Source of the DNA: Norana najaformis
Lineage: Eukaryota; Annelida; Clitellata; Crassiclitellata; Hormogastridae
Direction of reading: 5' to 3'
NCBI GenBank assembly: GCA_964023275.1
Contig: OZ029918.1
Location: forward strand, 34,816,471-34,880,470
DNA: 64,000 nt
In this document: in pieces, positions 6,385-51,073 of the stretch
How positions within the stretch are numbered: the stretch's first letter is position 1
How the letters are laid out: each line of letters begins with the position of its first letter
Translations under genes and position numbers: made by a program
The notes under the pieces: model-generated
Databases searched by the model: none
Seen by the model: only the letters and a program-made list of their open reading frames with translations
Told to the model about the DNA's origin: nothing

Positions 6385-6898
6385 TACACACACAATGTTA
6401 TCTTATTTCTCCTCTTCATCTGCTTCCTCTTCTCTTTCTTCGTTCTTCTTCTCCTCTTCTTCCTCATTTTATTTTCCCATTCCTCCTCATTATTTGTCCC
6501 TCTTTAATTCTCTTACCTCATTCTCCTTATCTCAATCCTCGTCCTCCTCTCTTAGCTTTCACGCTTCCTCCTGTTTTTCTCCTATTCCTCCGTTTCCTCT
6601 CCGCCTCCTCCTATACTTACTATGCCTCTTATTCCTCCTTTTCCGTTCCATCGTCCTACTTTTCATCTTTCTCCTTTTCTCAATCTTCTTAATCATTTTC
6701 TTCATCATCTGCTTTCTCCTCCGCTTCCTCATTCTCCTATTTCTCTTCCCCTTCTTCTTCCTCCTCTTCTTTCTCTTTCCCCTCTTCTTCCTTCTCCTCT
6801 TCCTCTTCCCTTCTTCCTCCTCATCTTTCTCTTCCCCTTCTTCCTCCTCATCCTCTTTCTCTTCCCCTTCTCCTTCCTCTTCCTCCAGCTTCTGCTTG
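6385..6898. repeat. Polypyrimidine tract next to a splice donor
   Basis: About 510 bases of C/T-rich DNA (TCC, TTC, CTCTTCC). On the minus strand it is purine-rich and begins about 15 bases after the donor of UNC93A-like exon 1. Frames read through it into the exon are artefacts. Confidence 0.9.
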
Positions 6899-6913
6899 GC
6901 CAGATGGTCCTAC

Positions 6914-8126
6914 CTTAGTGAAGTCAGTGATGACAAAGCCTTGTTGGAATCCGACGAAGAACACCAGTGGAGCCAAACCTTGCAGTCGGGCGTCCTTCAT
7001 CATTCTCACCGTTGCCATCAGCAACTGCCTCGTCGCAAGACCTCCCTCAATCACCACGACACCCTCATCCCCTTCCTCCACCACCCCTCCTCCACTTCCG
7101 GCGTCCAGCTTCCGGTCGAGAAGCACAACCGGAAGTACAACCGACAGGACGACACAGGCGGCCTCTACCAACAACAGCCAGGTGCGCGCGTTCGGCGGCA
7201 GCGGGGCGGCGTGGTGGGGCACGTTCTCGTCACCCGCGAAGTCCGTCGGATTGCAGTCACGGGCCCCACAGTAGGACTGTGTGCAGGACCGGTTACGCCT
7301 GGCCAGGTGGAGCGTGTCGTTGTCGGCCGACAGCGACACGGCCGAGATGAGGCTCCCCCAGACTTGACTGCTCTGCATCAGGCCGACGAAGACGCCGTTG
7401 AAGCGGTTCACCGTCGACTCGGGCAGCTCGCGGATCGTCTGCGCGTAGCGGATCGATAGGGTCGTCAGGTAGGCCGACTGGGCCGTCCAGAGGGGCCCAG
7501 CGACGCAGCCGAAGAGAAGGGAGGCGGGCACGAGGAGGAAGTCCCGCGGGTAGAAGTTGGCCGCTACGAGAACGAGGTAGAGGGAGTAGGCAGCAACGAT
7601 GGTCCACTTCGCCCCCAAGAGGGCGATGACGGACGGGGCGAGGAAGCAGGATAGCAGCATCGTGGCGTACATACACCCGAGGGAAGTCACCCCGACCCCC
7701 CGGTGAGGGTTGAGGCTGCTCTGGAGGTTCTGAAGAGACGTGAAGGCGGTGAGCCATAGCATGCAACCGCAGCTCAGTACCACAAGATTCTTCAGAGCGC
7801 GACATCTGTTCAGTCGTTGTCGTGTTCCACTTGGTTCCTGTTCGTCGTAGGAACCGCGTTCCGTCGTTGTCGAAAATGATCCAGCCAGTCGCAGCGGAAC
7901 TACGGAAGGACGCCGGTCCGCAATCGGCGACTTCTGGGAGAACTGGACGTCGTGGAGGTAGGACGGAAATCCGTTGTTGAACGGTCTGCTCTCGGATGGG
8001 TTGAACTTCCGGTTTTGTCCTGCGTCCATCGACCGGAAGTCGGCGAAGGCGTCGCGAGCAGACCGGATGTTGCCCTGCGTCGCTTCCATCAGTCTAGATG
8101 ATCGTGCGCCGGAAGTGAGGAACGAT
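6914..8126 (-). CDS. UNC93A: UNC93A-like membrane protein, exon 1
   Basis: Codes 392 residues from ATG at 8089. UNC-93 proteins are MFS-fold multi-pass membrane proteins; worm UNC-93 modulates a K+ channel, while UNC93A function is poorly defined. Visible: a 100-residue hydrophilic, Ser/Arg-rich N-terminus, then a helix at 101-120 with the LQSSL motif after it, GPLWTAQSAYLT at 188-199 (family hallmark), SSQVWGSLIS at 230-239, a luminal loop with sequons N247 and N256 and Cys 259/264/269, a helix at 303-324, a Gly/Glu/Val linker, and GFQQGFVITDFTK at 380-392. The donor is AAG|GTAGGA (GT at 6913-6912), phase 0. A CT-rich stretch ending CGGCAG puts the likely exon start at 8126, giving a 37-base leader. 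The N-terminus is much longer than in vertebrate UNC93A, so a later start cannot be excluded. Confidence 0.9.
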
Positions 8127-8454
8127 CTGCCGAAGGAGGAGAGAGGAATCGAGAAGAAAGACCCGGATGTGAATCGTGAGTGGGTCGTCAGTCGGTCGTG
8201 CTAAGGAAGACGGAAGTGTCCTGTGGGCTGACATCTGTCGACGACAAAAGAAAACATCAATTGAGATGCAGCTATCGTTCGGGACGTCAAAGAACACAAA
8301 CAAGACACCAATCAGAAACGACACAGAACCATCGCATCAGCATCAGTACCAGCACCCAAGGGCCTCTTATCTTCCATCACCGATGCGCCAAGATACCCAT
8401 CCACACCGCGCCAACTCTACAAGTTCCCAAACATCACCATATCTACCATTACAT

Positions 8455-45811: not shown

Positions 45812-46160
45812 GATGGATCCTCAACCAGAAGCACTTCTCCATGGATGGGTCCTCAACCAGAAGCACTTTCTCCATGGATGGGTCCTCAACCAGAAGCACT
45901 TTCTTCACGGATGGGTCCTCAACCAGAAGCACTTTCTCCATGAATGGGTCCTCAACCAGAAGCACTTTCTCCATGGATGGGTCCTCAACCAGAAGCATTT
46001 TCTTCATGGATGGGTCCTCAACCAGAAGCACTTTCTCCATGGATGGGTTCTCAACCAGAAGCACTTTCTCCATGGATGGGTTCTCAACCAGAAGCACTTT
46101 CTCCATGGATGGGTCCTCAACCAGAAGCACTTTCTTCACGGATGGGTCCTCAACCAGCGG
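45812..46160. repeat. 33-bp array, forward, about 10.5 copies
   Basis: Unit contains CCTCAACCAGAAGCACTTTC, then TCCATGGATGGGT. A length of 33 keeps frames open, giving 11-residue peptide repeats such as MDGSSTRSTFS. Variants swap CTCCAT for TTCACG or GGGTCC for GGGTTC. Confidence 0.95.
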
Positions 46161-46387: not shown

Positions 46388-46810
46388 TGAAGTGCTTCTG
46401 GTTGAGGACCCATCCATGGAGAAAGTGCTTCTGGTAGATGACACATCAATGGAGAAAGTGCTTCTGGTTGAGGACCCATCCATGGAGAAAGTGCTTCTGG
46501 TAGATGACACATCAATGGAGAAAGTGCTTCTGGTTGAGGACCCATCCATGGAGAAAGTGCTTCTGGTAGATGACACATCAATGGAGAAAGTGCTTCTGGT
46601 TGAGGACCCATCCATGGAGAAACTGTTTCTGGTTGAGGACACATCCATGGAGAAAGTGCTTCTGATTGAGGAACCATCCATAGAGAAAGTGCTTCTGGTT
46701 GAGGACCCATTCATGGAGAAAGTGCTTCTGATTGAGGAACCATCCATGGAGAAAGTGCTTCTGATTGAGGAACCATCCATGGAGAAAGTGCTTCTGGTTG
46801 AGGACCCATA
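46388..46810. repeat. 33-bp array, inverted, about 13 copies
   Basis: Reverse complement of the 45812-46160 array. Between about 46400 and 46620 two unit types alternate (GGTTGAGGACCCATCCATGG and GGTAGATGACACATCAATGG), forming a 66-bp higher-order repeat. Followed by a CATACACA array to 46880. Confidence 0.95.
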
Positions 46811-46880
46811 CATACATACACACATACATACACACACATACAGACATACACACATACATACACACATACACACATACATG

Positions 46881-49090: not shown

Positions 49091-49385
49091 TAGCGTTATG
49101 CGATGATGATGACGATGATGACGATGATGATGATGATGATGATGGTGATGATGATGCTGATGAGTCCTCTGTCCGAAGGCAGGTCCTTTGACTTTATGCC
49201 ACCTGGGGATGAGATGAGTGACGTGGTTTCCCGTTGCCTTCTTCGCAGACAATTGTGGGTGAGCAACTTGTCCAAGGTCGCTACGCAGTGGCTTGAGGCA
49301 GATTCGAACCCTCGACTCTCCGGTTACGAGGCACAGACCATTCCACTACACCACTGCATTAGTGCTCTTTGTAGCGTTATGCGAT
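49091..49385 (-). mobile_element. tRNA-SINE with 14-bp target-site duplication
   Basis: The body 49105-49371 runs on the minus strand from a tRNA-like head to a (ATC)n tail. The head has TGGTGTAGTGG (fits the A box) and GGTTCGAATCT (fits the B box), about 30 bases apart. The perfect duplication TAGCGTTATGCGAT is at 49091-49104 and 49372-49385. It is inserted in the LINE RT frame, so it is younger than the LINE. The fully preserved duplication points to a relatively recent insertion. Confidence 0.9.
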
Positions 49386-49942
49386 ATAACCTCGCATTTT
49401 GAACAATTTATGTTCAAGCCGGGGTCTTTGCATTTCTGCTCAATCAATGCCACGTTTGTACCAACTATCTGGGCCTCTTCGCCAAGGGTGAAATCATCAA
49501 AATACCCAAGAATGAGACAAGATGACAGGTTGGACAGAACCGGCTAGAGGGGGAGGCAGAAGAGCAGCGGGTCTAGAGGGTCTTCTTGCTGAGGGCCAAC
49601 TCGAGACAGGAGACTGAAGTCACCATATTTCCGAGTGGATGGCTCGGAGTAACCTACAATGCAGATGGCAGAAATGTGCTAGCATGCGGTCCTTAAAAGA
49701 CTACTGAAGGCTTTGGAGCAGTCAAGTTTAACCAGAATTGAGCCCTTCGCATCACAAAGGAAGAGTCTGGCAACATGAGCAGCTGCCTCGAATCCAAATG
49801 GCACGTCAACGTCTACACTGTGGGGACAGCAAAGGCGTTAGTTCTCGTCCTCACTTGAACCTAATCTGCGCCAGTAATATTCGATCACATTAAGGCGCAG
49901 AACAGACAGGACCTTCCTAAGAGAGTGGTGCGAACCTGTCTA

Positions 49943-50530
49943 GAACATTTTCCTGCCAAGAGAAGATTGACCAGGGCCGTAATTGTGAACCCTAACCCCA
50001 ACCCCTAACCCTACTGTTTAATGTTCTAATGTTTAGAACATTTTCCTGCCAAGAGAAGATTGACGAGGGCCGTAATTGTGAACCCTAACCCCAACCCCTA
50101 ACCCTACTGTTTAATGTTCTAATGTTTAGAACATTTTCCTGCCAAGAGAAGATTGACCAGGGCCGTAATTGTGAACCCTAACCCCAACCCCTAACCCTAC
50201 TGTTTAATGTTCTAATGTTTAGAACATTTTCCTGCCAAGAGAAGATTGACCAGGGCCGTAATTGTGAACCCTAACCCCAACCCCTAACCCTACTGTTTAA
50301 TGTTCTAATGTTTAGAACATTTGCCTGCCAAGAGAAGATTGACGAGGGCCGTAATTGTGAACCCTAACCCCAACCCCTAACCCTACTGTTTAATGTTCTA
50401 ATGTTTAGAACATTTGCCTGCCAAGAGAAGATTGACGAGGGCCGTAATTGTGAACCCTAACCCCAACCCCTAACCCTATTGTTTAATGTTCTAATGTTTA
50501 GAACATTTGCCTGCAAGAGAAGATTGACGA
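49943..50530. repeat. 93-bp RT/telomere-like hybrid array, about 6.3 copies
   Basis: Period 93 by start positions 49943, 50036, 50129, 50222, 50315, 50408. Each unit holds about 43 bp of LINE coding sequence (TGCCAAGAGAAGATTGAC, GGGCCGTAATT) plus about 50 bp with CCCTAACCCCAACCCCTAAC and GTTTAATGTTCTAATGTTTA. The LINE reading resumes on both sides. Units differ by CCAG/CGAG and TTTTCC/TTTGCC. Confidence 0.95.
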
Positions 50531-51073
50531 GGGCCGTAATTGAGGAGCTTAGACCAGGATCAGATTTATTACCAATTCCAGAATGTGTTGGGGTCGAAGA
50601 CCATCAGCTCTCCCCCAAAAGAACCCGCATGGAAAGTACGAATGCAAGTATGTCTGCCTCTTGAGTTTGAAAGGGAGTGTGAGTAGTAGGTCTGGAGGAG
50701 GAACAGGATGCTACTCTAGCGTCTCTGCATTTCTCGGGACCGGCTTATCTTCAAAGCACAGCAGGATCCCTATTGCTGCCCTAATGTTCCAGTCTTCAAG
50801 TCAGGGTGAGACCGGTGCATCGATAGCTTGCTTGCTGCTTCGTCCTCACTTGCTCATCGCAGAGGTACGTGGATATCCTGGGAGCAAACAGTTCTGCACC
50901 TTTCAGGGACCAGGTGGAAAAGAATTCCTCAACTCGCCCTTTAATGGTGGATGTTAAGCTATGGTGTTTGCCACCTCTAATCGGCTGCTGTAGTGTCATG
51001 GCCTCAAATGAAAGATCTGCCGTGGAAGAGGGCTGAGAAGGTCCGACAAAATGTCATTTATTAGTAGTAGCCT

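Follow-up and report, generated by a model that had tools for sequence, protein, structure and literature searches.

The window, a stretch of 64,000 nucleotides (contig C6, 34816471-34880470) from an assembly that was searched as 17 contigs with a total of 608 Mb, contains a tandem array at 49941-50542, with the closer contig end about 4.7 Mb away. The array is made up of six full units with a period of exactly 93 bp and a seventh unit of 44 bp; TRF called it at 49937-50542 (period 93, 6.5 copies, 98% matches, score 1149). Every full unit starts with 45 bp of decayed LINE reverse-transcriptase (RT) sequence and continues with 48 bp of filler (Table 1). The initial annotation had described the same array, and its account holds with small corrections to the borders; the composition of LINE sequence plus telomere-like filler was recognized correctly, whereas the lengths given for the two parts, about 43 and about 50 bp, are replaced by the measured 45 and 48 bp. 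Tandem repeats called by TRF occupy about 29% of the window (239 rows), among them one 33-bp unit that forms two arrays in opposite orientations, about 230 bp apart (45812-46157 and 46390-46813, TRF consensus). Outside the repeats described here, a minus-strand open frame at 6848-8200 matched UNC-93 (PF05978, E = 1.2e-15), and a further minus-strand piece at 1970-2365 matched MFS_1 below the cut-off (E = 2.8e-5). Rfam and tRNA scans of the window returned no matches, and searches for the filler or the LINE segment elsewhere within the window gave short matches only (best E values of 0.77 and 0.054).

Table 1. Features of the array and its flanks (window positions), with the candidate telomerase RNA gene on contig C3.
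Feature	Position	Strand	Basis and remarks
Left flank, RT region of a decayed LINE (non-LTR retrotransposon)	49383-49940	-	blastn pieces against L002-L005; PF00078; frame breaks and stops
Full 93-bp units (six)	49941-50498	.	Starts at 49941, 50034, 50127, 50220, 50313, 50406; sequence reading and TRF
45-bp LINE segment, copy 1 (duplicated target)	49941-49985	-	Peptide ITALVNLLLAGKCS; empty-site alignments and translation
48-bp filler, copy 1	49986-50033	.	Genome search, six places only at up to three mismatches
Telomere-like part of filler	49988-50013	.	26 bp (filler bases 3-28), C-strand; in every full unit
Junction inverted repeat, AATGTTCTAA (filler) - TGT - TTAGAACATT	50020-50042	.	10-bp perfect arms; at each filler-to-LINE junction
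Filler copies identical to the first	50079-50126, 50172-50219, 50265-50312, 50358-50405	.	
Filler copy 6	50451-50498	.	One mismatch to the first
Unit 7, LINE-only copy of the 45-bp target	50499-50542	-	44 bp, one C missing; joins right flank
Right flank, continuation of the same LINE	50543-51000	-	Genome matches; loci common with left flank
Candidate telomerase RNA gene	C3:24548372-24548757 (L056:201-586)		Whole-length RF00024 match; CUAACCCU at template

Apart from the deletion in unit 7, the units vary at three positions, namely 11 (T/G), 32 (C/G) and 74 (C/T). Position 11 is T in units 1-4 and G in units 5-7, position 32 is C in units 1, 3 and 4 and G in units 2, 5, 6 and 7, and T at position 74 is confined to unit 6. 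When positions 11 and 32 are read together from unit 1 to unit 7, the haplotypes (T-C, T-G, T-C, T-C, G-G, G-G, G-G) fit a mixing of left-type and right-type copies. Both positions are third codon positions of the RT frame; these are only two sites in a dead LINE, the placement may be due to chance, and selection is not claimed.

The minus-strand translation of the left flank, with X at the stops, matched RVT_1 (PF00078) with E = 4.9e-6 and 26.8 bits, below the Pfam cut-off of 29.6, and comparison with a structure bank gave a weak similarity to R2 retrotransposon proteins (best E = 0.0022). The host LINE is dead, because frame breaks and stops interrupt its coding region. At least 27 other genomic places matched the right flank, some of them being pieces of one copy, and because their identity was only 67-83%, the LINE family is presumably old. 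As the initial annotation had proposed, LINE sequence continues on both sides of the array: each flank matched the same four loci (L002, L003, L004 and L005).

A 591-bp query yielded a full-length match at its own locus only, and four other places, L002-L005, whose flanks match both array flanks, aligned with the LINE part alone. These four were aligned with ten more relatives, chosen from the right-flank matches that reached near the site, while 14 of the 27 right-flank match places were left out of this alignment. Ten of the 14 relatives read through the empty site, and none contained the filler. A single blast match spanned the site in nine of them (L002-L005, L046-L049 and L054, at 67-79% identity), and the read-through of L055 comes from the MAFFT alignment alone; L050 covers the right part only and L051-L053 diverge left of the site, all four without filler. 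At the site, L049 carries a CCCTAA hexamer of its own that is part of the LINE, again without filler. Either this hexamer or TTAGGG occurs somewhere in four of the 14 relatives (L005, L049, L054 and L055), the L049 hexamer being the one inspected. Alignment to the relatives shows the LINE sequence at the insertion site to be complete except for the single base lost in unit 7. The empty sites belong to paralogous LINE copies with small indels of their own (67-79% identity) rather than to an orthologous allele. The initial annotation had suggested insertion of a telomere-like segment into the RT region, followed by tandem amplification of the junction, a view at odds with intact LINE copies that normally carry the CCCTAA segment. 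The search for the LINE elsewhere in the genome, which it had also proposed, delimited the insertion through relatives that lack the array, and bore out the suggestion. That LINE copies normally carry the segment was rejected, since the filler was absent from all 14 aligned relatives and L049 has the hexamer only.

When the whole 48-bp filler was searched for in the entire 608-Mb assembly, subtelomeres included, as the initial annotation had advised, it was present at up to three mismatches in these six units only. Its 25-bp tail was likewise restricted to these units at the same stringency, and the reversed control gave one match. The telomere-like 26 bp were 25/26 identical to stretches within the terminal arrays at six contig ends (L007, L010, L011, L019, L031 and L035). 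A 22-bp telomeric core occurred exactly at six places, which are these units, and with one mismatch at 46 others, nine of which lie no more than 10 kb from a contig end and 37 farther away, and the reversed control pattern was found nowhere. The telomere likeness of this stretch exceeds chance, and short telomeric tracts are ordinary in this genome. The telomere repeat of this genome is TTAGGG, and arrays of it were present at 14 of the 34 contig ends read (6-8 kb each); of 3733 terminal telomeric units parsed, 3706 were TTAGGG, 10 were TTAGGGG and none was TTGGGG. The filler comprises about four telomeric units, two of which are the variants TTAGGGG and TTGGGG, and the same two variants occur in a tract at C2:35219822 that is alike in 24 of 25 bases. 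Because two of about four units are variants, compared with 3706/3733 TTAGGG units at the ends, addition by telomerase is no likelier than the capture of telomeric DNA that already existed. Of the sequence of events offered in the initial annotation, telomere-repeat addition at a break followed by slippage, the insertion and the amplification stand, and addition by telomerase is just one among several conceivable sources of the repeats.

Two further properties of the locus had been overlooked in the initial annotation. The 45-bp segment (TAGAACATTT...GTAATTG), which is present twice around the filler, is a target duplication, and the end of the filler beside the LINE is an inverted copy of this target. 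The second arm of the junction inverted repeat, TTAGAACATT, consists of the last filler base and the start of the next LINE segment. A junction stem equal to the observed one was reached in 0 of 4000 shuffles of the filler tail, and 2 of 4000 gave an inverted match to the LINE segment as good as the observed one, nine bases long. It looks as if a broken end had folded back and copied itself. If the 3' overhangs were 45 nt long, the position of the inverted repeat would coincide with the predicted 3' tip of the overhang on the right, and the telomeric G-strand in the filler runs 5' to 3' away from this presumed tip. The anatomy of the locus suggests a break with overhangs.

Minisatellites have units of 10-100 bp in short arrays. 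With a 93-bp unit in 6.5 copies, the array at 49941-50542 is a single-locus minisatellite. A satellite DNA family would comprise numerous copies, spread over several loci or arranged in long arrays; six full units were present at one locus in the assembly, and the term satellite in the initial annotation was therefore an overstatement. The telomere-like stretch also qualifies as an interstitial telomeric sequence, given its 25/26 likeness to the telomeres of the same genome and its location some 4.7 Mb inside C6, measured from the nearer end. As in break-inserted telomeric sequences, an empty site is present, here on paralogous copies (10/14 read through, 0/14 with filler), and the 45-bp target duplication together with added bases forms an end-joining scar. 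The array, as read from its sequence, provides no evidence for a function.

The probable origin of the array, in our judgment, is repair of a break by snap-back synthesis with a telomeric insert, which left a 45-bp target duplication and was followed by expansion of the direct repeats. A double-strand break in the dead LINE copy would have left complementary 3' overhangs, each about 45 nt long. On the right-hand side, the end of the overhang (...AATGTTCTA-3', minus strand) would have formed a fold-back, so that its final ~10 nt were copied, and the same 3' end would then have gained about six bases and 26 nt of telomeric G-strand sequence; the latter may have come from telomerase activity or, by capture or copying, from a telomere or an interstitial telomeric tract. 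Joining of the extended 3' end to the left end and fill-in of both overhangs would place the 45-bp target twice, on either side of the 48-bp insert. Direct repeats 93 bp apart could subsequently misalign, by unequal exchange or replication slippage, to yield six and a half copies, presumably with some exchange between units during the expansion. The empty site, the target duplication, the single-locus filler, the telomere similarity, the inverted repeat and the mosaic variants are observations; the break with overhangs, the sequence in which the steps followed, the enzymes involved and the way the repeats expanded are deduced from them. Several points count against this reading: for a staggered break, 45 bp is a long distance, no source was found for the six filler bases CTGTTT, and the variant telomeric units are rare (TTAGGGG) or unseen (TTGGGG) in the parsed ends. 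In addition, the empty sites are paralogous, and 11 of 12 other tracts lack a clear edge-to-edge target duplication. The array is most likely a scar left by break repair of a known kind, and not a new satellite family. One readable locus would thereby connect a repair accident with a duplication, an inverted copy and a telomeric insert, then with two direct repeats, and finally with a minisatellite; the unusual part is the tandem expansion of the entire repair scar, the locus otherwise fitting known processes.

Telomerase could alternatively have healed the break by adding TTAGGG to the 3' end and copying RNA adjacent to the template, as at TERC-ITS loci, an origin that we regard as possible but somewhat unlikely. 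The polarity of the insert fits, and such loci have been reported in 22 vertebrate species (PMC8537989). A search with RF00024 gave one candidate telomerase RNA (43.4 bits, E = 5.7e-7, under the vertebrate cut-off of 70; controls 0/14 genomes), with CCUAACCCUUACGGAGUUUAA at the putative template; the filler reads CCTAACCCTACTGTTTAA. Its 3' end, CAUACACUA, we take to be H/ACA-like. The score of the whole filler aligned with the candidate RNA locus was reached by 26 of 500 shuffles, but it takes in the telomeric part, which any telomerase template must match. Beyond the template the match was not significant (equalled in 632 of 5000 tail shuffles and 1035 of 5000 RNA shuffles, with the shared six-base word in 729 of 5000), so these comparisons do not support a telomerase-RNA origin for the tail. 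The tail, moreover, occurs at no other locus at up to three mismatches, the inverted LINE copy explains ten of its bases better than the telomerase RNA does, and an accurate telomerase would not be expected to make variant units. We consider it improbable that telomerase extended a 3' end that had folded back, copied beyond its template and left a repair patch that was preserved and is growing into a new satellite. Replication template switching of the MMBIR or FoSTeS type would yield the same product as break repair without an overhang break, if a nascent strand left the LINE, copied a short telomeric tract and then a hairpin, and re-entered the LINE 45 bp upstream. The LINE sequence before the insert, CCGTAA, shares five of six bases with CCCTAA, and the relative L049 has CCCTAACTG there, but this likeness is short and was spotted after the fact, and no donor with matching flanks was found in the assembly; we regard template switching as an unlikely source.

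The telomere-like part may also have come from a 19-bp subtelomeric satellite (units of the type CTAACCC...) rather than from telomere repeats, although we judge this distinctly unlikely. Tracts of the satellite lie at 17 of the 34 contig ends, 14 of these 17 also having a TTAGGG array, and a 14-mer of one of its variants (CTAACCCCAACCCC, counted at 8 of 34 ends) recurs exactly in the filler. The whole filler scored 22 against the satellite, compared with 14-18 in 20 whole-filler shuffles. When the telomeric head was kept and the tail shuffled, however, 154 of 300 shuffles reached 22 (59 of 300 for the tail alone), and therefore only the telomere-like head carries the likeness; plain telomere arrays, for their part, match 25 of the 26 bases. 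A subtelomeric origin of the tail was rejected on the same control, which the visible alignment failed. The tandem structure within a transposon might suggest that a pre-existing satellite or mobile element had inserted into the LINE, yet half of each unit is the host LINE's own sequence at the exact site, and a dispersed element of this kind, which we hold to be scarcely credible, was rejected with the finding that the unit is confined to a single locus in the assembly. An assembly artefact might be suspected in a repeat-rich region, TRF having called 29% of the window as tandem repeat; the units nevertheless bear distinct, patterned variants between clean LINE flanks, which makes an artefact very improbable.

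The locus that we attribute to break repair resembles several described systems. Telomeric tracts inserted at double-strand breaks, some with target duplication, were reported by Nergadze et al. (2007, PMC2246262), whose table records such a duplication for 6 of 130 cases in rodents and 4 of 25 in primates and whose search required at least four TTAGGG units; the filler has about four, two of them variant. The present locus is like those cases in having a telomeric tract, there sometimes within a repetitive element, with an empty site deduced in that account from the consensus of the element. It differs in the 45-bp duplication, the adjoining inverted copy of the target and the six-unit expansion, no such expansion being described in the parts of that account considered here. 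At TERC-ITS loci, identified with a threshold of one hexamer, a break likewise received telomeric repeats together with neighbouring sequence that is not telomeric (Sola et al. 2021, PMC8537989); for the filler tail studied here, derivation from telomerase RNA is not supported, as 632 of 5000 tail shuffles were equal. Telomerase RNAs have been described for invertebrates, molluscs included (PMC8480181). Small tandem duplications arise through fill-in of complementary 3' overhangs, with overhangs down to 43 bp used (PMC8355091), and the present duplication would similarly be of overhang length after fill-in and end joining, whereas its two copies are separated by filler and telomeric DNA. Tandem arrays that originated from transposable elements have been reviewed (PMC6947457, PMC9659126); as in those, part of a transposon turned into a tandem array, but in this case the seed was an insertion with target duplication in a dead LINE, and every full unit carries telomeric DNA. 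Among the titles and abstract openings of the literature searched, no tandemly expanded short telomeric insertion was found.

Twelve of the 46 one-mismatch core places were cut out and examined by shuffling for direct repeats at the tract edges. L059 (C6:30201290-30201590) has a 9-bp direct repeat, CCAATTTAA, on both sides of its telomeric tract (0 of 500 shuffles), which overlaps the tract edges by two and four bases. Direct repeats in L066 and L063 were equalled in 4 and 9 of 500 shuffles, respectively; these repeats are telomere-like themselves and do not lie at both tract edges. For the nine other tracts at least 120 of 500 shuffles were equal, the tracts of L058, L061 and L062 reaching the end of the cut-out, which limits the comparison there. 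A clear edge-to-edge target duplication was thus absent from 11 of the 12 tracts, which are not all independent, as L063, L064 and L068 resemble one dispersed repeat. Target duplications at short telomeric tracts, a feature described for mammals, are found in this genome too.

Some other telomere-related repeats were noted in the assembly. The 19-bp subtelomeric satellite occurs in variants such as CTAACCCTAGTTTCCAAAC and CTAACCCCAACCCCATTTA (contig ends L006-L039), and at the two ends inspected, L011 and L025, its C-rich strand is the same as the G-rich strand of the adjoining telomere. At L061 (C8:2129530-2129830), a CCCTAA array runs straight into a CCCCAA repeat array. TTAGGG/CCCTAA arrays distant from the contig ends lie at C1:34975233-34975908 and from C1:40630540 onward; these internal C1 arrays may be interstitial arrays, old fusions or misjoins.
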